64,000 nucleotides of DNA from a virus: the IMG/VR virus record IMGVR_UViG_3300005537_000001, positions 248,001-312,000 of that record; one strand, 5' to 3'. Position 1 is the stretch's first letter, and each line of letters opens with the position of its first letter. Under the pieces are notes generated by a model that did not search any database, was not told the DNA's origin, and saw only the letters and a list, made by a program, of their open reading frames with translations. Positions 25,246 through 52,144 of this stretch are shown here, piece after piece. The translations under genes and the position numbers were made by a program.

Positions 25246-25550
25246 TTATTATCAGCTGCCTTGTTGCATATTATCTAATAGGCACCGCTACCGCCGCTTG
25301 GTTGTCCAAGACATATCCAAGCATAGATCATCAAGATCCAGCGTTAAAGCATGTTATGATACCGCTCTTTTGGCCACTTGTTGCGCTTATGTTTATCATG
25401 CGAATAATTTGTAAAATTCACATGATGATCTACACGGTAATGTCCCACGCGCTAAGCGTTTTCAACATGCGCATTACCAAAGATGGTAGCGATACCGTCA
25501 TTCGCTTTCACGTACCAAAGAAGGCAGAACTAAGTGCTAAAGATAACTGA
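25242..25550 (+). CDS. small membrane protein
   Basis: 102 residues. N-terminal span (MIIISCLVAYYLIGTATAAWL), second hydrophobic region (VMIPLFWPLVALMFIMRIICKI), then a soluble basic tail (DTVIRFHVPKKAELSA). ATGA overlap upstream and 17-base overlap with the ligase gene downstream. Function unknown. Confidence 0.6.
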   Translation: MIIISCLVAYYLIGTATAAWLSKTYPSIDHQDPALKHVMIPLFWPLVALMFIMRIICKIHMMIYTVMSHALSVFNMRITKDGSDTVIRFHVPKKAELSAKDN

Positions 25551-26712
25551 CATCCAGGAGCTTCGCGAGAAGGTAGCTCACAAGGAAGAAATTCGCGAGT
25601 CAACGCTAAGCGCGGATCTCACCAGCTTCTGCTACATGATCTCGGCCGAGAACACCTTCGACAATCCGTGGGCGCGCGAGTGCCGCGGAATCGTGTTCGA
25701 CAGCGCTGGAAAGGTTTGTTCGCGTCCGCTTCACAAGTTCTTCAACGTGAATGAGCGCGAAGAAACGCGCGCCGAAAATTTGGATTGGGCAAACGTTGTT
25801 CGAGTCATGGATAAGCGAGATGGATCGATGATTCATCCCGTTAAAATGTCTGATGGCAGCATTAGATTGAAGTCGAAGAAATCATTTGATTCTGACGTAG
25901 CCAAGGCAGCCACAAGCTGGGTCATAAGGGAATTTGAAGCTGGTAGGAAGGGTGTGAATGACATTCTATCTAAGCTGGTGCTAGATATCGATTGCACCCC
26001 CATTTTTGAATGGACAGCTCCAGATGCTCGAATAGTTTTACCTTATGAGCAACCAGAGCTTCGCCTGCTCCACATCCGAGACAATGAGGATGGAAATTAC
26101 TGGAGTCTATCGGCGTTAGTGCGCATTGCTGAAGAGTACAACATAAAGATGGTAGATGAAGTTGACGAATTTTGGTGGAAGATGGGTGGTGAAGGTTTAC
26201 CAGCCACGCGCGAATTCAACATCGACAAGATGCTCGAAGCGGCAAAGACTCGTGAAGGCATCGAGGGTTGGGTAATCCAATTCAGTAATGGTGAAATGGT
26301 TAAGTTGAAAACCGACTGGTACATGAAGCGTCACAAGGCGATGACATTTCTACGCGAGCGCGATATAGCAGATTTGGTTTTGACGGAAGGGATAGACGAT
26401 CTGAAGGCTCTTCTCATTGGCGACGGTGTTAACATCCAGCAGATCCTCGACATCGAAGCTCGCGTAATTGAAGACATCCGAAACATTGAGCGCAACACGA
26501 AGGCAGTGTGTACCCAACATGATTTTATGCTTGATCGAAAGACGTTTGTGCAAAAATTTCGTGAGAAAGCTGGTCCATACTTTGGTCTGTTGATGAATTT
26601 GTATTCTGGAAAGACAGCAGATTACAGATACTTCTTCGAGAAAAACATGCTCAAACAAAATTACGGGTTGGGACAGCTTACCTTGATACCATCCGTTGCG
26701 GAGGGAGAATGA
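25534..26712 (+). CDS. rnlA: RNA ligase, T4 Rnl1 family
   Basis: 392 residues, near T4 RNA ligase 1 (374). GTG start inside the previous gene. Nucleotidyltransferase motifs in order: ECRGIVFD (49-56), motif I KRDGS with adenylated Lys94, motif III-like FEWTAP..RIVLPY (159-171), motif IV EGWVIQF (244-250), motif V MVKLKTDWY (255-263), then an all-helical C-terminal domain as in Rnl1. It joins 5'-phosphate and 3'-hydroxyl RNA ends using ATP. In T4 this enzyme reseals tRNA cut by the host PrrC anticodon nuclease. No obvious Pnkp partner is in the window. Confidence 0.9.
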   Translation: MLKITDIQELREKVAHKEEIRESTLSADLTSFCYMISAENTFDNPWARECRGIVFDSAGKVCSRPLHKFFNVNEREETRAENLDWANVVRVMDKRDGSMIHPVKMSDGSIRLKSKKSFDSDVAKAATSWVIREFEAGRKGVNDILSKLVLDIDCTPIFEWTAPDARIVLPYEQPELRLLHIRDNEDGNYWSLSALVRIAEEYNIKMVDEVDEFWWKMGGEGLPATREFNIDKMLEAAKTREGIEGWVIQFSNGEMVKLKTDWYMKRHKAMTFLRERDIADLVLTEGIDDLKALLIGDGVNIQQILDIEARVIEDIRNIERNTKAVCTQHDFMLDRKTFVQKFREKAGPYFGLLMNLYSGKTADYRYFFEKNMLKQNYGLGQLTLIPSVAEGE

Positions 26713-27873: not shown

Positions 27874-28947
27874 ATGGAACGCAAGCTAGTAACGGTTAGA
27901 CAAATCAACACCCTTGACCCAATTCCTGGCGCAGACGCTATTGAGGTTGCCGGAATCGAAGGTTGGAAGGTAGTTACGAAGAAAGGTGAATTCAACATCG
28001 GAGATTTTTGTCTCTACTTCGAAATTGACTCATTCCTGCCTGAAAGTGATCCTCGCTATTCATTCTTGATGAAGAGCGGGGTGCGTGAATTTGAGGGCGC
28101 GCGCGGTCACAAGCTACGCACAGTCAAGCTGAGGGGGCAATTGAGCCAAGGGCTAGCGCTACCGCTCGGATTATTTCCTGAGCTATCGATTACGGGTGAT
28201 GCTAGCCTAAAAATCGCGATGCGCGATTTCGATCTAGCCGAGAAGCTGGGTATCAAGAAATATGAAGCTCCAATCCCAGCTCAGCTAGCTGGTCTTGTGA
28301 AGGGCGCGTTTCCAAGCTTCATCAAGAAGACTGATCAAGAGCGCTGTCAGAACCTTATCGGTGAAATTTTTATCGATAACAAGCATTCATCCTATGAAGT
28401 TACGACGAAGCTAGATGGTACCAGCGTTACTTTCTATCACTACGATGGTGAAGGTGGAGCGTGTAGCAGAAATCTTGAAATGAAAATTGTAGATGAAAAC
28501 AAGGAAAATTCAATAGTCCGAATGTTCATCGACAGTGGGATTCAGCGTGCGCTCACCTTTCTTAACCACAACGTAGCTATTCAGGGTGAGCTGATGGGAC
28601 CATCTATTCAAGGTAACCGTGAGGGCCTAAAGCACCATGTATTCTACGTGTTTGACATCCAAAATTTGCACACAGGGGGATATTTCACCCCAGCTGAACG
28701 AACGAATTTTGTTGATGGGCTTATTGCCGGTGGCATGAATAGTGGCATCGTATCTCACGTTCCGGTTCTTCATGAAGCTAAAACGCTTTCTCAGCTGGGT
28801 ATTTCAAACGTTGAAGAGCTGCTCGCGTACGCTGAAGGTGTAAGCATAAACAACCCAATTCGCGAGGGAGTTGTATTCAAGCGTACCGATGGAAAGTTCA
28901 GCTTCAAGGCAATAAGCAATTCTTTCCTAACGAAAGAAAAGGACTAA
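27874..28947 (+). CDS. RNA ligase, Deinococcus DRB0094 (Rnl5) type
   Basis: 357 residues, near the size of Deinococcus radiodurans RNA ligase. It has an N-terminal extension of ~150 residues with the DPIPGADAIEVAGIEGWKVV start typical of this family, then ligase motif I TTKLDGTS with Lys179, motif III-like AIQGELMGP, motif IV REGVVFKR (330-337) and motif V FSFKAISN. In Rnl5 the N-terminal module directs sealing of nicks where the 3'-OH side is RNA. A second RNA ligase of a different family, five genes from the Rnl1-type one, suggests separate substrates. Confidence 0.85.
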   Translation: MERKLVTVRQINTLDPIPGADAIEVAGIEGWKVVTKKGEFNIGDFCLYFEIDSFLPESDPRYSFLMKSGVREFEGARGHKLRTVKLRGQLSQGLALPLGLFPELSITGDASLKIAMRDFDLAEKLGIKKYEAPIPAQLAGLVKGAFPSFIKKTDQERCQNLIGEIFIDNKHSSYEVTTKLDGTSVTFYHYDGEGGACSRNLEMKIVDENKENSIVRMFIDSGIQRALTFLNHNVAIQGELMGPSIQGNREGLKHHVFYVFDIQNLHTGGYFTPAERTNFVDGLIAGGMNSGIVSHVPVLHEAKTLSQLGISNVEELLAYAEGVSINNPIREGVVFKRTDGKFSFKAISNSFLTKEKD

Positions 28948-45706: not shown

Positions 45707-45734
45707 AAGCGGACCCTCACGGGTCCGCTTTTGT
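45707..45734 (+). terminator. intrinsic terminator
   Basis: AAGCGGACCC-TCAC-GGGTCCGCTT followed by TTGT: 10-bp stem with a tetraloop, after the replication operon. Confidence 0.85.
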
Positions 45735-45752: not shown

Positions 45753-45760
45753 CATAAATA
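45753..45760 (+). promoter_or_regulatory. T4-type late promoter variant (CATAAATA)
   Basis: CATAAATA right after the terminator and 27 bases before the GIY-YIG gene start at 45788. Suggests late expression of the homing endonuclease and possibly the giant gene that follows. Confidence 0.5.
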
Positions 45761-45787
45761 TCTCATGACAATATGCACGGACATCTC

Positions 45788-46597
45788 ATGAACACGACCA
45801 CTGATAAGTGGTGCGTATACATTACGCGTCATAGAACAGGAAAATTCTATGGCGGTAAAGGTGTGACCGAAGCCGTGCAAAATGGAACCTATAAGGGTTC
45901 TGGAGTAATGCTTCACAAATATTTCAAAAAATATCCAGCAACTGAGTGGATATCAGAAATTTTATCAACTCATGACATTGAAAATGATGCTTATGCAGCT
46001 GAAGCAAATTTTGTAACAGAAGAAATGCTGTTAAATCCAGACTGTTTAAATCTTATACCAGGTGGACATGGATGGACATCCGAGCAAGTGATAAAGCACA
46101 ATATTGAGATGTGGAAGAATCCATTATTTGTAGATAAAATGAGAAAGATGAAAGCAGCTCATTGGTTAGATCCACAATTTGTAGAGCGCATTACAAAAGC
46201 GGCATCCGAATTTCAAACTAAGCGTTGGCAAGATCCAGAATACCGCAAATTTATGACAGAGGTGTCAAATCGCACTGTTAACAGAACCTGGAGAAATCCA
46301 GAATTTCAAGCAGAAATGAGTAGACGAGCTTGGGCAAAACCAGAAGTGAGGGAATTTCAGAGGCGTAAGACAACTGAGCGTTGGGTATCTGGTCCACTCC
46401 GCGAACAACAAAGAATAGGCGCTCAAAAGGTATGGGAAGATCCTGTTAAGAGTGCACAAATGCGAGTTCAACGTTCAAATAGAATGAAAAATATTCGATG
46501 GATGAATAAAGATGGAGTTGCTCGACAAATACCGATTAATTTGATTGCACAGTTCGAAGCTGATGGATGGAATGGGGGAATGAAATGCAAATCCTAA
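45788..46597 (+). CDS. GIY-YIG homing endonuclease
   Basis: 269 residues from the ATG at 45788; an in-frame ATG 15 bases earlier is an alternative. N-terminal GIY-YIG-type domain: WCVYITRHRTGKFYGGKG then YKGSG, and a later Glu (LPG-like NLIPGGHGW). The middle holds repeats of the form WKNPLFVDKM, WLDPQFVERI, WRNPEFQAEM and WVSGPLREQQ, the NUMOD-like DNA-binding style. The end reads INKDGVARQIPINL...GWNGGMK. Visibly more A-rich than its neighbours. In T4-like phages such genes cut the homologous site of rival genomes and copy themselves in. Its 3' end overlaps the next gene by 13 bases. Confidence 0.8.
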   Translation: MNTTTDKWCVYITRHRTGKFYGGKGVTEAVQNGTYKGSGVMLHKYFKKYPATEWISEILSTHDIENDAYAAEANFVTEEMLLNPDCLNLIPGGHGWTSEQVIKHNIEMWKNPLFVDKMRKMKAAHWLDPQFVERITKAASEFQTKRWQDPEYRKFMTEVSNRTVNRTWRNPEFQAEMSRRAWAKPEVREFQRRKTTERWVSGPLREQQRIGAQKVWEDPVKSAQMRVQRSNRMKNIRWMNKDGVARQIPINLIAQFEADGWNGGMKCKS

Positions 46598-49500
46598 AAT
46601 CAATAGTATTGACAGAAGGCATCGATCATATTGAAGATTTGCCACCTCAGCAATTCATTCGCACAATAGAAGCTCTGAAAGATAAAATTATAACTGAAAA
46701 ACTGGATGGAACTGCACTTCGGTTTGGAATCGATGATGCTGGATTCTTTACATCTAGAGAAGGTAAATCCCCCAAGCGTGGTCGGTTCTACAGCGTTGAT
46801 GATTATCCATCAACAGCCAATTCTAACTCATTCCGCGCGGCCCACGTAGCCTTGGAAAAGGTCGAGCCGATAATTAGAAAGTATCTAAAATCCGGAGATA
46901 CGGTTGAAATTGAAGTACTGTTTGGTCGTCAGCCCAACACCGTAACCTACGGTCACGATGGAAAAAATTTCATCGTTCTTCTGCGCGGAGTGAATGGCAC
47001 ACCAGATGAGCGAGTTAGCAACTTAGCAGGCGCGCTCAAGGATAAGATTGTTTCGGCAGAGTCCGAAGTAATTTCATCACCAGATGGTGATAAGCTTGAA
47101 GCTAAAAGTGAAAAATCTAATTGGCAGTTCACAAACGTAGCTCCAATTCAAGCTGAAAAGATAAACACAAAGCAGGCGCTAGAGATGCTTGCAGAATTGA
47201 AAGCCTACATGGCCCAAAAGAATGAAGCATTTCCGGATAAGACAAATGCTGAAGTAGCTGAACTTGTTCTTACCGGTGTTCCAAAGGAGCAGCGTGGGTC
47301 GGCAAAAGCTGAGCGCGAAAAGGTAAACGCGCACATCATGGATAAATTCAAGAATCCGATCAAGGAGCTGCTGCTCAATCACTTTGTGCGAAAGATAAAA
47401 CCGTTCCTTCAGGATAAGAAGCTTGGTAAGGGTGAGGACATCGGCGTTGAGGGTGTAGTTGTTCGCGACCCAGTTACCGGCAGTCAAACGAAGATCGTTG
47501 ACAAGGATGTGTTTACCGCGATCAACACTTTCAACTCCGCTGTTCGCAACAACATTTCGGGACTTGTAAGAACGACTGATGAGAAGGCGCCAATCGAGAT
47601 GCGAGGTGGTGCTTTTGGTCAAGCGAAGATAAAAATCGCTGAATTATTGGGAGCGCATGAGCTGGCTCTATCATCAGCCATGAAGCGCTATATTTCTCAA
47701 TACAAAGGTTCTGATGAGGCAGCTACAGCCCTTAACGTTGCTAAACATCTCAGCATTACCAGCTTACCGGCTGTCCGCACCAAAATTTCCGGCATTCTAA
47801 CGGGTGTCGTGAAGGAGGTCAACACTATTCTTCAGGGATTCAAGAAGGAAGCTGGTGAGTTTAAGCTTCAACTTAAAACCGGTAAAGAAATTGGTATCAG
47901 CTCGGAGATCATGAAGCGAACGCTTACCGCCTTTGCTGAAACAAAGAAAGAAATAGCTGAAGTAAATTCTAACGTTCTGCATAGTCGCACGGCAGCAGAC
48001 CTCATAATGGCGCTGTATGGCAAGACGATAAGTCAGATCTTCAGTGAAGGAGAATCAAAGGTGAAGGAAGAATTTGAATTAATCCGTTCTGCAGATGCGA
48101 TAAATGAAGCCGACAGCGTAAAGCGCGAAGCATTTAAAAAGGTTAAGGAGCTTCAAGATAAAAATCCTGAGGCTCGAGTTTCCTGGAATGTAGTAAAGGG
48201 TGTAGCGACGGTATATCTTGGAACCAAAAAGGTTTGGTCAAAACCACTAGCTGAAGCTGGTGGGGTTGGTGCTAGTGCCGCAGGCGGCATGGGTTCAGGT
48301 AATGGAGCTATGGCTGCAGGTGGTGCCATAGGCGGATCTGGCTATGGTGGTGCGTTTAGCGGTGGGCACGGTAGCACAGGTCCAGGATTTTCTGGTGGAC
48401 GTGGTGGTAGCTTAGGTGGAAAATCTTCTGGAGGTAAGGAGGCGCGTATGTCTGATCCTTCAAAATATCTCAAGGAGCCTTCCGAAAAAGAACCTAACGC
48501 AAATCCATTTAAGATGCTCAAGGGTAACAAAATGGTAACCAAAAAAATTCGTAATTTCGTACGGCCGCTTAAATTTCCAATAGTCCAAAAGGAACCAACT
48601 GAAAGAAAGAAGCGCGTCGGCGAGGATGCTGGGGCTGCGACAACTTCAGCTGGAGCTATCGGAAATTTCCAGATGCCTGTTGGCGCGATAGGACCGGGTT
48701 TTGCTGGCACCGGATCAAAAGCTAAATTGCTAAGTAGGATTCCAGTGACTAAAAACAAGAAAAAATATTCTCTAATTTCTGCGGTTAACGAAGATGGATT
48801 CGCCCATCTTTCTGACATGAAATTTGCGGCCAATGTTGATGTTCCAGCTGGAAATGAAGTTGAATTCAATCAAGCTAGAAATCAATCACCTATCGACAAA
48901 ATAACTCCCATGACCGTAGATCGATATCTTAACCGCGCGCATGAAATAAACGACGCGGTTGATACGGTAACGTTTGGCATGGAGGCAGATGATGGATCGG
49001 TAACTAAAATCTACGTCAATGCATCTCAAGCTGATGGTTTTGAAAAGGCTCTGGCCGACATGTTGGGAAGAGAAACAGATCTTGAGCAAGTTGTAAACAA
49101 TCTTGCCAATCGCTTTGACATCGTTGATGTCGAGTGGCCTGATACGCTGAAACAGCAAGTTCAACAGCAACCTTCCGTTCCGCAATCTGATGAAACTCCA
49201 GCTGGTCCAGTAGATACATCTACCGAGCAGCCTACCGCAGACGGCGATGATTCCAACATAAACCTCGACCTTGAGCCAGAACATGCAGATGATGCAGATA
49301 CAGCTGGTGATGGAGAAATCAACCAAGAATTGACTCTTGACGAACCAGAAGAAGATGATGAAGATGATGAAATTGACGATGACGACAGCGATGAGGATGA
49401 GGAGGAACTAAAAGCACCTGATGATGAGCTAGATGATAATGGGGATACTGAGTCGAGCAGCGATGAAGATTCCGATAATGAAGATGAGGACAATGATGAA

Positions 49501-50277
49501 GATGAAACCACCGATGATGAGGGGTTAGAGCGTGATGATTTTGGTCAGCTAGTCGATAAATCCAAGAAGAAAAAGAAGAAGAAAAAAGAAGAAACCACTG
49601 AGGAATCGGTAAAGCTTCAAGAGGCGGTATCATTCGCTAATCCAGCCGCTCAGGCGATAGCTGATATGTTAATCGCGATGGGCTTCGACATTAGCGCAAG
49701 TCGAGCATACTCATATCAAGCTAACCAGCTGATAGACAAAAATTCCCCTGGGCTGCTTGTCGCTCGGTCAACATCTGTAGCAAGCAAGCTTGGCGGTGCC
49801 GCATCAACCTTAGCCGCGGCGCTCAAAGTATCTGGTGGCGGTGCATCAACTCCGGCTAAAACAACGACTACTACGCAAACGGCGACCGCCGCGCCTGCGA
49901 CACCAAAATCAACGCCTACGTTTGCAAATCCGGCGATTCAAATTATCGCAAACATATTGTCGGCGATTGGTTATGATTTAAATTCGACGCACTCATTTAC
50001 CGTTCAAATGAAATCGCTCATCGGTCATAATTCCCCAGGTTTGATCGCGGCTAAGCAGCAAAGCGTGCTGTCAAAGATAAAGGGAGCGCGGGACGCTCTT
50101 GCCGCCGGGCTAAAATCCAGTCCAGGTGCTTCTCCTGGATCAGCTTCAGCTGGATCTCTCGGTGGACCAGATTCTGACGCAGGAAGTGGGAGCGGTTCAC
50201 CGTTAGCAATTACGAACCTATCATCAGGATATTCATTGATCGGTTCCATCATCGCTGAAACAAGTGTAAAAATTTAG
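46585..50277 (+). CDS. giant protein with nucleotidyltransferase/ligase-like domain
   Basis: 1230 residues from the ATG at 46585, preceded by GGGGGAATGAA; an in-frame ATG 18 bases upstream is less favoured. N-terminal ~310 residues carry ligase-superfamily motifs: EKLDGTALRFG with Lys39 (motif I), TVEIEVLFGRQPNT near 110 (motif III-like), IGVEGVVVRDP near 289 (motif IV) and TKIVDKD (motif V). Then a long helical part (about 310-550), a Gly-rich linker (about 565-625), a basic patch, an acidic coil (about 900-1005, many Asp/Glu) and a 67-residue unit repeated twice at the end. It is not T4 gp30 DNA ligase. Which substrate is sealed or capped, and whether it is a virion protein, is unknown. Confidence 0.6.
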   Translation: MQILKSIVLTEGIDHIEDLPPQQFIRTIEALKDKIITEKLDGTALRFGIDDAGFFTSREGKSPKRGRFYSVDDYPSTANSNSFRAAHVALEKVEPIIRKYLKSGDTVEIEVLFGRQPNTVTYGHDGKNFIVLLRGVNGTPDERVSNLAGALKDKIVSAESEVISSPDGDKLEAKSEKSNWQFTNVAPIQAEKINTKQALEMLAELKAYMAQKNEAFPDKTNAEVAELVLTGVPKEQRGSAKAEREKVNAHIMDKFKNPIKELLLNHFVRKIKPFLQDKKLGKGEDIGVEGVVVRDPVTGSQTKIVDKDVFTAINTFNSAVRNNISGLVRTTDEKAPIEMRGGAFGQAKIKIAELLGAHELALSSAMKRYISQYKGSDEAATALNVAKHLSITSLPAVRTKISGILTGVVKEVNTILQGFKKEAGEFKLQLKTGKEIGISSEIMKRTLTAFAETKKEIAEVNSNVLHSRTAADLIMALYGKTISQIFSEGESKVKEEFELIRSADAINEADSVKREAFKKVKELQDKNPEARVSWNVVKGVATVYLGTKKVWSKPLAEAGGVGASAAGGMGSGNGAMAAGGAIGGSGYGGAFSGGHGSTGPGFSGGRGGSLGGKSSGGKEARMSDPSKYLKEPSEKEPNANPFKMLKGNKMVTKKIRNFVRPLKFPIVQKEPTERKKRVGEDAGAATTSAGAIGNFQMPVGAIGPGFAGTGSKAKLLSRIPVTKNKKKYSLISAVNEDGFAHLSDMKFAANVDVPAGNEVEFNQARNQSPIDKITPMTVDRYLNRAHEINDAVDTVTFGMEADDGSVTKIYVNASQADGFEKALADMLGRETDLEQVVNNLANRFDIVDVEWPDTLKQQVQQQPSVPQSDETPAGPVDTSTEQPTADGDDSNINLDLEPEHADDADTAGDGEINQELTLDEPEEDDEDDEIDDDDSDEDEEELKAPDDELDDNGDTESSSDEDSDNEDEDNDEDETTDDEGLERDDFGQLVDKSKKKKKKKKEETTEESVKLQEAVSFANPAAQAIADMLIAMGFDISASRAYSYQANQLIDKNSPGLLVARSTSVASKLGGAASTLAAALKVSGGGASTPAKTTTTTQTATAAPATPKSTPTFANPAIQIIANILSAIGYDLNSTHSFTVQMKSLIGHNSPGLIAAKQQSVLSKIKGARDALAAGLKSSPGASPGSASAGSLGGPDSDAGSGSGSPLAITNLSSGYSLIGSIIAETSVKI
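49633..49833 (+). repeat. C-terminal 67-residue unit, copy 1
   Basis: Begins FANPAAQAIADML and contains NSPGLLVARSTSV; 67 residues. By my gap-free alignment 33 residues match copy 2. Separated from it by a Thr/Ala-rich linker. Confidence 0.7.
49921..50121 (+). repeat. C-terminal 67-residue unit, copy 2
   Basis: Begins FANPAIQIIANIL with NSPGLIAAKQQSV at the same place as copy 1. Same length without gaps, followed by a Gly/Ser-rich end. Predicted helical. Confidence 0.7.
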
Positions 50278-50301: not shown

Positions 50302-50961
50302 ATGAAGTTTGCCTACCCAGAGTTATCATCACGCAATGAATTAGGAATGAGGGTATATGATACCCCTTCAGGCTGGCTGCCATCAGTAACAACGATATTG
50401 GGAACAACGATGCCGGAAGAGAAGGCCGCTTCGTTGGAGAAGTGGAGAACCTCCCTAGGCAGAGAGAAGGCAGATAAGGTAACGCGTGATGCCGCGAATA
50501 ATGGCACACAAGTTCACAAGCTCATAGAGCGTTTTTTGAAGGGTGAAGAACTATTCCGCGAAGGTGAAGCATTTGAACCGTTAGAAATCTCGGGGTTCAA
50601 CGCGCTCAAGCTTAAGCTGAAGAAAATTGATGAGCTGTGGGGATTGGAAATTGCTTTATACTCTGACCTACTTGCGGTAGCTGGACGGTGCGACTGCGTC
50701 GGAATTTACAAAGGTAAACCGAGCATCATCGACTTCAAAACGTCGATGCGGCTTAAGGGTGAAAAGCAGATAGAGGATTACAAGCTTCAAATATGCGCGT
50801 ACTCCATCATGCACAATGAGATGTTTGGTACTGAAATTACAGATGGTGTAATCTTGATGACATCAGCTGGAGGTTTTCCACAAGAGTTTATCGTGGATTT
50901 AACCAAATATGTTGATCCACTGATCGCTCGAATAGATGAATTCTATCAACGACTTTCATGA
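50302..50961 (+). CDS. PD-(D/E)XK nuclease, MGME1/Cas4-like
   Basis: 219 residues. N-terminal LPSVTTIL, then GTQVHKLIERFL, an Asp in the GRCDCVGIYKG strand, and IIDFKTSM as the D-x-K motif, with YKLQICAYS as the Gln-x-x-x-Tyr helix. These features match the RecB/Cas4/MGME1 nuclease superfamily, which trims DNA ends. It lacks the Fe-S cysteines of Cas4. Probably processes flaps or recombination ends. Overlaps the HtrA-like gene's upstream open frame but ends before its GTG. Confidence 0.75.
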   Translation: MKFAYPELSSRNELGMRVYDTPSGWLPSVTTILGTTMPEEKAASLEKWRTSLGREKADKVTRDAANNGTQVHKLIERFLKGEELFREGEAFEPLEISGFNALKLKLKKIDELWGLEIALYSDLLAVAGRCDCVGIYKGKPSIIDFKTSMRLKGEKQIEDYKLQICAYSIMHNEMFGTEITDGVILMTSAGGFPQEFIVDLTKYVDPLIARIDEFYQRLS

Positions 50962-50971
50962 GGTGATCCAC

Positions 50972-52144
50972 GTGAACAAACTACTGACCTACCTCGCCTC
51001 CTTCGTCCTAGCAATTGGCATCGCCGCTTGCTCGCCAACAAATCAACCTCCAGCTCATATCACCCAAACTATCATCCAAGGCGGTTTGCCCGATTTTACG
51101 CCGATAGTAGATGAGGTGATGCCAGCCGTTGTTACGGTGTTTGTTACGGTTCCAGCTAAAGCTTCCCCTGGATTAGATAATCTAATACCATTTTTCTTTC
51201 AGATCGTTCCCAACGATTCTAAGCCGATAGTTCCCAAGGAACCACAGCTACCAAAAACCGTAACGATGCAAGGTTCTGGATTCGTCATAACTACCGATGG
51301 TTACATCATTACAAATAATCACGTAGTTGATGAAGCTACAAAAATTGCAGTTAGATTTTCAGATAATCGTGAGTATGCCGCCAGAATAATTGGTACCGAT
51401 GAACGATCTGACATCGCTCTGCTAAAGATTGACGGCAAGAATTTTCCGACAGTTAGAATTGGACACTCATCTGCTGTGAAGGTTGGGCAGTGGGTTCTAG
51501 CCATGGGGGCACCGTATGGTTTTGAAGGCACGGTTACAGCCGGAATAGTTAGCGCTAACAATCGATACATGCGCTCCGGTGAGCTTGAACCGTACATTCA
51601 AGTAGACGCGGCCGTTAACCATGGAAATTCCGGCGGAGTTCTAGTTAACATGGCTGGTGAAGTTATCGGCATCAATTCTCAAATTTGGAGCAACAGTGGA
51701 GATTTTAACGGCCTTGCATTTGCTATTCCAATCGATTATGCGATAGATGTTGAAAAGCAGCTGCTTGCTACTGGTCACGTAGTTAGGGGTAGAATCGGTG
51801 TCGTTATACAGTTTGTAGATCAAAAGGAAGCAGATGCTGGTGGGCTGGACAGACCTCGTGGAGCCAAGCTAGCTAGCATTGAAGGTGGCGGACCAGGAGC
51901 TGCGGCCGGGTTGAAGAAAGATGATATCGTGTTGTCGGTTAACAACTCTCCCATTGAAATTCATTCTCAGATGCCGCTGCTTATAAGTAATTTGAAGCCT
52001 GGTTCTGTAGCCGTCCTAAGCGTGTGGCGAAATAAGCGGGCTATCACGGTTAAGGTAAAAGTTGACGAAATGCAAACTACGCTAGCCCAAGATAACAAAG
52101 ACCTTAGGTCGCTTCCAGCTCCAAAGGATGATGAAAAGAAATGA
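50972..52144 (+). CDS. HtrA/DegP-like serine protease, lipoprotein
   Basis: 390 residues from the GTG at 50972, chosen because AGGTGATCCAC precedes it; the frame continues upstream into the nuclease gene. Signal peptide LTYLASFVLAIGIAAC has a lipobox (I-A-A-C), so the mature protein would be lipid-anchored in the periplasmic side. Trypsin-like core: NNHVVD (His117), SDIALLKID (Asp147) and GNSGGV (Ser220), then one PDZ domain (about 285-370) with PGAAAGLKKDDIVL. Shorter than DegP (two PDZ). In bacteria these enzymes degrade misfolded envelope proteins. A phage role could be envelope remodelling, stress relief or exclusion; none is shown. Confidence 0.85.
   Translation: MNKLLTYLASFVLAIGIAACSPTNQPPAHITQTIIQGGLPDFTPIVDEVMPAVVTVFVTVPAKASPGLDNLIPFFFQIVPNDSKPIVPKEPQLPKTVTMQGSGFVITTDGYIITNNHVVDEATKIAVRFSDNREYAARIIGTDERSDIALLKIDGKNFPTVRIGHSSAVKVGQWVLAMGAPYGFEGTVTAGIVSANNRYMRSGELEPYIQVDAAVNHGNSGGVLVNMAGEVIGINSQIWSNSGDFNGLAFAIPIDYAIDVEKQLLATGHVVRGRIGVVIQFVDQKEADAGGLDRPRGAKLASIEGGGPGAAAGLKKDDIVLSVNNSPIEIHSQMPLLISNLKPGSVAVLSVWRNKRAITVKVKVDEMQTTLAQDNKDLRSLPAPKDDEKK

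Follow-up and report, generated by a model that had tools for sequence, protein, structure and literature searches.

Phage enzymes that are injected into the host are known, among them ADP-ribosyltransferases and RNA polymerases. In T4, the IP proteins and Alt are directed into the prohead by leaders of 10-20 residues, which are cleaved off afterwards (PMC7411985, PMC9958956). A late motif resembling that of T4 was reported for the Rak2-like phage CBB (PMC5259590), and members of the Pol-beta family RlaP occur together with phage RNA ligases (PMC7824862). In the literature searched, no description of an RNA-ligase-like injected phage enzyme was found.

The window, the whole stretch of 64,000 nucleotides analysed here, corresponds to G000:C1:248001-312000, where G000 is the record of a jumbo phage of 368,054 bp with XacN1 and the Rak2-like phages among its relatives. 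Among sequenced phages, the nearest major capsid protein was that of Xanthomonas phage XacN1 (55%), followed by Stenotrophomonas phages CM1 and RAS14 (50%) and then by PA5oct, Phosso and Rak2-like jumbo phages. On balance we lean towards the reading that one ORF of this window encodes an RNA-ligase-like enzyme fused to a late head-type protein, which would be packed into the prohead and cut by the prohead protease, with the mature enzyme in the head. A putative leader with a prohead-protease-type site, a probable late promoter and xE sites at domain borders are newly noted here for a ligase-like enzyme.

The ligase-like domain

The fusion ORF was found at 46585-50277 on the plus strand with 1230 codons for amino acids, the position and length given in the original prediction. 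Its longest reading begins at 46567; since the relatives align from the ATG at 46585, this ATG is taken as the likely start. Comparison of the whole protein with Pfam, PHROG, NCBIfam and PDB sequences gave no match above the cut-off. The features of the locus are collected in Table 1.

Table 1 Features of the fusion gene and its surroundings (window coordinates; a slash marks the predicted cut)
Feature	Position	Strand	Basis or remark
T4 Rnl1-type RNA ligase	25534-26712		PF09511, 122.8 bits
OB + RNA_ligase-type RNA ligase	27874-28947		PF21189 + PF09414
Terminator-like hairpin AAGCGGACCC-TCAC-GGGTCCGCTT with T-run	45708..45731	+	81-nt fold -23.6 kcal/mol, z -3.3
CATAAATA, probable T4-type late promoter	45753..45760	+	one base off TATAAATA
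Homing endonuclease gene	45773..46597	+	PHROG 314, E 7e-22
Putative leader MQILKSIVLTE/G, residues 1-11	46585..46617	+	resembles T4 capsid-targeting sequence with gp21-type cleavage site
Ligase-superfamily nucleotidyltransferase domain, residues 12-325	46618..47559	+	motifs, fold, family matches
Motif I EKLDGT, residues 38-43 (Lys39 at 46699-46701)	46696..46713	+	invariant; predicted catalytic Lys
Glu110 in VEIEVLFG, motif III-like	46912..46914	+	invariant
Motif IV EGVVV, residues 289-293	47449..47463	+	E289, G290 invariant
Motif V TKIVD, residues 302-306	47488..47502	+	K303 at least 90%, D306 invariant
C-terminal helical domain of the enzyme, residues 330-490	47572..48054	+	AF2 helices; BFVD match to PA5oct, 480 columns; stand-alone PA5oct protein ends here
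Internal xE site INE508/A, border of the two fused genes	48100..48108	+	conserved alignment column
Gly-rich linker	48265..48504	+	sequence
TSAGAIGNFQ	48643..48672	+	exact 9-mer in common with major capsid protein N-arm
SLISAVNE, leader-like internal site ahead of small alpha/beta domain	48769..48792	+	sequence
Small alpha/beta domain, ends FDIVDVEWP	48907..49161	+	AF2 blocks 80-87; tblastn
Acidic disordered stretch	49180..49584	+	sequence; pLDDT < 50
KLQE/A, leader-like internal site ahead of C-terminal repeats	49612..49623	+	neighbouring alignment column
C-terminal helical unit copy 1, 67 aa, residues 1017-1083	49633..49833	+	repeat comparison
C-terminal helical unit copy 2, 67 aa, residues 1113-1179	49921..50121	+	33/67 identical to copy 1
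SIIAE/T, last leader-like site	50245..50259	+	sequence; similar in several relatives

A ligase-superfamily domain had been proposed from the motifs EKLDGT, EGVVV and TKIVD, and this proposal was borne out by motif conservation, fold and family matches. All three motifs are present as described. In an alignment of 16 relatives with identities down to about 25% (three of them at 25-29%), E38, K39, D41, G42, E110, E289, G290 and D306 were invariant, including the lysine whose conservation had been named as decisive. K303 was lost in only one of the aligned relatives. Judged from these sequences, the conservation of the ligase motifs exceeds chance. The two RNA ligases described elsewhere in the window were both confirmed by Pfam.

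The structure of residues 1-505 was predicted with AF2 from 15 sequences (pLDDT 78, pTM 0.70) and gave the ligase-type core that had been expected. The 24 best PDB matches of the model were all ligases, with T4 Rnl2 (2hvq) in first place (E 2.7e-3), followed by archaeal RNA ligases and the Naegleria RNA ligase; no PDB match had an E value below 0.001. Among the viral models of BFVD, PA5oct gp256 was the best match (E 1.8e-25), and further matches were phage and giant-virus proteins, many of them named RNA ligase. The Pfam family RNA_ligase (PF09414) matched weakly in 14 of the 15 family members (best E 1.7e-4), and the protein of the window reached 17.5 bits against a cut-off of 27. Formal membership was rejected at this score. 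Alignment of the family profile with true RNA ligases by hhalign covered motif I only, with a probability of 1.8%. Because the sequence profiles are weak, the domain is called an RNA-ligase-like nucleotidyltransferase and not a member of PF09414.

The same superfamily motifs would be expected of a DNA ligase or a capping-type guanylyltransferase, and an Aquifex protein annotated as putative DNA ligase was among the fold matches. However, the best fold matches are nearly all RNA ligases, and AF2 predicted no OB domain after motif V, where DNA ligases and capping enzymes carry an OB fold, but a helical domain instead. Either identity is highly improbable. Two observations favour RNA repair: the fold matches are RNA ligases, and the enzyme gene of Phosso and Atu_ph07 is followed by a gene of a Pol-beta-type nucleotidyltransferase, a kind of protein to which RlaP, a partner of phage RNA ligases, also belongs.

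The relative which lost the motif V lysine (L022, 3634-6867) also lost the SREGK loop after motif I, and it kept the leader, the promoter and the architecture. Its enzyme is probably dead, as far as the sequence tells, and catalysis is thus not always kept. This observation would fit a structural role, in which the protein enters the prohead as part of the scaffold and either keeps the nucleotidyltransferase fold for shape or binding or is degraded as a whole during maturation. Cleavage reduces gp22, gp67 and gp68 of the T4 core to small peptides (PMC9958956), and the second half of the fusion protein is acidic and of low complexity. Yet elsewhere the motif residues are all invariant or nearly so, and the enzyme part is the best conserved portion of the fusion protein; we hold a purely structural role to be quite unlikely.

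Another relative (L029:4603-5900) is broken right after motif I (EKLDG) by an apparent split intein, identified by eye, with an N-part, a C-part (..FFANGILVHN/SNLWFG) and a separate ORF between them. By eye, this ORF resembles a Vsr/EDxHD-type homing endonuclease.

For the part behind the enzyme, the original prediction had listed a Gly-rich linker, an acidic coil and a duplicated C-terminal unit of 67 residues. Linker and duplication are real. The acidic stretch is real as well, but it is predicted to be disordered and not a coiled coil. In general, the second half was modelled poorly (AF2, pLDDT 50). Downstream, at 50936-52144 of the window, a DegP/HtrA-like protein is encoded, with Trypsin_2 and PDZ domains and an N-terminus like that of a lipoprotein (LAIGIAAC), which is unusual for a phage.

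Late promoter, leader and internal sites

The terminator-like hairpin ends the upstream replication operon with primase and DnaB-type helicase, and the probable late promoter follows. In 14 of 18 related loci the exact T4 late promoter TATAAATA stands 33-49 bp ahead of the gene, and two more (L007, L024) have it with one base changed; the window itself has one mismatch. In the whole genome, ATAAATA was located ahead of 47 of the 507 ORFs, compared with about 5 expected, and a homologue of the late sigma factor was detected (E 1.4e-19). As an insertion, the homing endonuclease gene separates the late promoter from the fusion gene, and its stop overlaps the start of the latter. The upstream region of L019 looks alike with a similar reading (..W-N-x-G-M-K); the other relatives have no endonuclease upstream.

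T4 Rnl1 (gp63) doubles as the catalyst of tail-fibre attachment. An RNA ligase with a late role is thus known in T4, and the late promoter found here would also suit an assembly factor of tail or fibre. The leader and the xE sites indicate the head, however, and the window carries a separate Rnl1-type gene at 25534, so that we consider a function of this kind very improbable.

Each of the 17 distinct long-form starts, from about 17 metagenomic phages, has some 8-13 residues up to and including [LI]xE, with G, A or S as the next residue. The pattern [LI]xE/[GAS] agrees with the consensus at which T4 gp21 cuts. In the alignment of 14 full-length sequences, the leader columns held L/I, E and G/A/S in 14/14 sequences each, while the middle residue was of ten kinds. 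Residues 1-10 were disordered in the model (AF2 pLDDT 26). A gene for a gp21-type protease is located in the same genome (G000 353361-353777, PF03420, 83 bits), so that a short N-terminal leader at a protease-type site occurs together with such a protease, as with internal head proteins of the T4 type. The genome also encodes a gp22-like acidic core protein. With a matrix made from the leaders of the relatives alone, the N-terminus of this core protein ranked second in the genome, at a score for which about 0.4 chance matches are expected. A matching site, AHLQE/T, was found in the N-arm of the major capsid protein (G000 358873-360141), with the arm sequence AHLQE/TAAAGTSSAGAIGNFQ.

Genome-wide, [LIVM]xE N-termini numbered 92 against 66 expected, and a tighter pattern 28 against 15.6. 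Because this enrichment is only mild, the leader alone is weak evidence. In a sample of 105 PA5oct genes, xE leaders were present in 8/50 MS-detected and 5/55 other proteins, a difference without significance (p 0.38). Similar leaders were noticed on further ORFs (G000 147551, 89318, 353914, 363805 and 188357), for example MNILKTVVALNE/DA, MSLLQDLFQLNE/KA and MLIQDLLNISE/AM, several of them with ATAAATA upstream. These ORFs are candidates for further internal head proteins.

Besides the leader, only two alignment columns showed a conserved hydrophobic-x-E with at least five different middle residues, namely INE508 and a site at about residue 1015, both at domain borders. At INE508 the hydrophobic residue was kept in 14/14 and the glutamate in 13/14 sequences of the same alignment, with a variable middle residue. 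At the second site E was found in 13/14, in the column beside KLQE/A, where the row of the window is gapped. D or E often stands after the cut in the internal sites, which are less T4-like than the leader site.

Furthermore, the nine residues SAGAIGNFQ are common to the fusion protein and the N-arm of the major capsid protein, a further pointer to the head. In the stand-alone protein of RAS14, AGAIG was seen directly after the LNE/T site.

Split homologues and probable origin of the fusion

Stand-alone homologues of the enzyme were detected by tblastn in Pseudomonas jumbo phages of the PA5oct group, in Sinorhizobium phage Phosso and in Agrobacterium phage Atu_ph07, always after primase and DnaB-type helicase. 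The enzymes of PA5oct, Phosso and Atu_ph07 lack both leader and late promoter; they stop at about residue 490 of the window protein, at the place of the first internal site. In IMG/VR, the long form was found at about 20 further loci by a scan with a four-sequence alignment, since an alignment of six sequences was too diverse. In bacterial and archaeal genome contigs no relative was found.

In Phosso and Atu_ph07 the gene for the Pol-beta-type nucleotidyltransferase adjoins the enzyme gene, with 39% identity between the two phages. It lies directly downstream of the stand-alone ligase-like gene (L001:13199-14059, L003:11028-11861). The homologue in the phage of the window lies far off (G000 174105-174929).

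The second half has separate counterparts as well. XacN1 ORF347 and RAS14 WAX21626 correspond to part of it, and the small alpha/beta domain (FDIVDVEWP) belongs to a separate late gene in both phages. They have their own leader, MTKxLNE/TAG, and TATAAATA at -35 (XacN1) and -33 (RAS14). The virion-detected RsoM2USA ORF438 (51.7 kDa) was considered as a homologue of XacN1 ORF347 and dropped, as the ORF order does not fit. Enzyme and second half, the latter with leader and promoter, thus exist separately, and these sequences suggest that an enzyme of the replication region became fused with a late protein at the present site 508, gaining late expression and the leader.

The existence of stand-alone enzymes is also what a soluble, late-made RNA-repair ligase with an unrelated long tail would lead one to expect; it would act outside the virion, and leader and xE sites would be coincidental or serve another purpose. 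The PA5oct homologue carries no MS-detected flag in its record, and the gene adjoins replication genes. Against this stand the exact preservation of L/I, E and G/A/S around a varying middle residue, the disorder of the leader in the model and the lack of leader and promoter in the stand-alone homologues. A soluble ligase is therefore unlikely.

Proposed fate of the protein and comparison with known systems

For the preferred reading, a packaged and cleaved enzyme, the following course is proposed. Part one, residues 12 to about 490, would be the RNA-ligase-like nucleotidyltransferase known as a separate protein from PA5oct, Phosso and Atu_ph07. Part two would be a late head-type protein with a Gly-rich and basic arm, the small alpha/beta domain, the acidic linker and helical repeats. 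In the fused lineage the enzyme would have acquired the late promoter and a leader of 11 residues. The protein would be synthesised late alongside the head proteins, and leader and second half would pull it into the prohead core, which the fused enzyme probably enters like T4 Alt. Cleavage by the gp21-type protease after LTE11, INE508 and further sites would remove the leader and probably release the enzyme from its carrier. Once mature, the enzyme would remain in the head and may pass into the next cell along with the DNA, in the manner of T4 Alt and the IP proteins. Lys39 is predicted to form lysyl-AMP for the sealing of RNA, most likely in the repair of host-cleaved tRNA at the start of infection.

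An enzyme of the virion or of a large complex had been suggested from the architecture. Leader, late promoter, protease gene and fusion to a late gene agree with this suggestion, and packaging itself is inferred from them.

Thus, the fusion protein may be an enzyme that reaches the host together with the viral DNA. If it is packaged, RNA repair would be possible in the first minute of infection, and the locus would show how a stand-alone enzyme moved into the virion by gain of promoter, leader and carrier. The further-reaching idea that a lineage of jumbo phages packs an RNA ligase into its head within a polyprotein cut by the protease, and that the ligase is injected together with the DNA and mends tRNA or other RNA cleaved by host defence nucleases before phage gene expression, is doubtful at present. 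The stand-alone, fused and carrier-only versions form a natural set for testing what sends proteins into the phage head.

Among described families, DUF6267 (PF19782) shares the block EG..V...K.V...F..LN (hhalign 35.7%, E 3.8e-4, 30 columns) and a K-x-D-G motif. Formal membership was rejected as no significant Pfam match was obtained, and by these sequence likenesses DUF6267 is a sister family at most. With T4 Rnl2 and PF09414 the enzyme has motifs I, III, IV and V and the fold in common. It differs by its score below the Pfam cut-off, a single lysine in motif V, its own helical C-terminal domain, the head-type partner, the late promoter and the leader.

T4 Alt and IPI-III, internal proteins which enter the host, are alike in the short leader of the [LI]xE/[AGS] type, late expression and a gp21-type protease in the genome. 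In contrast, the fusion protein has another enzyme fold, additional internal sites and a large carrier joined to the enzyme, and its packaging is a prediction. PA5oct gp256, Phosso 446 and Atu_ph07 gp066 represent the same enzyme in the same neighbourhood, but they are stand-alone proteins of 300-450 aa without leader and late promoter. XacN1 ORF347 and RAS14 WAX21626 share the FDIVDVEWP domain, the acidic linker, the LNE/T leader and TATAAATA, whereas they have no enzyme part, another C-terminal end and another position in the genome.
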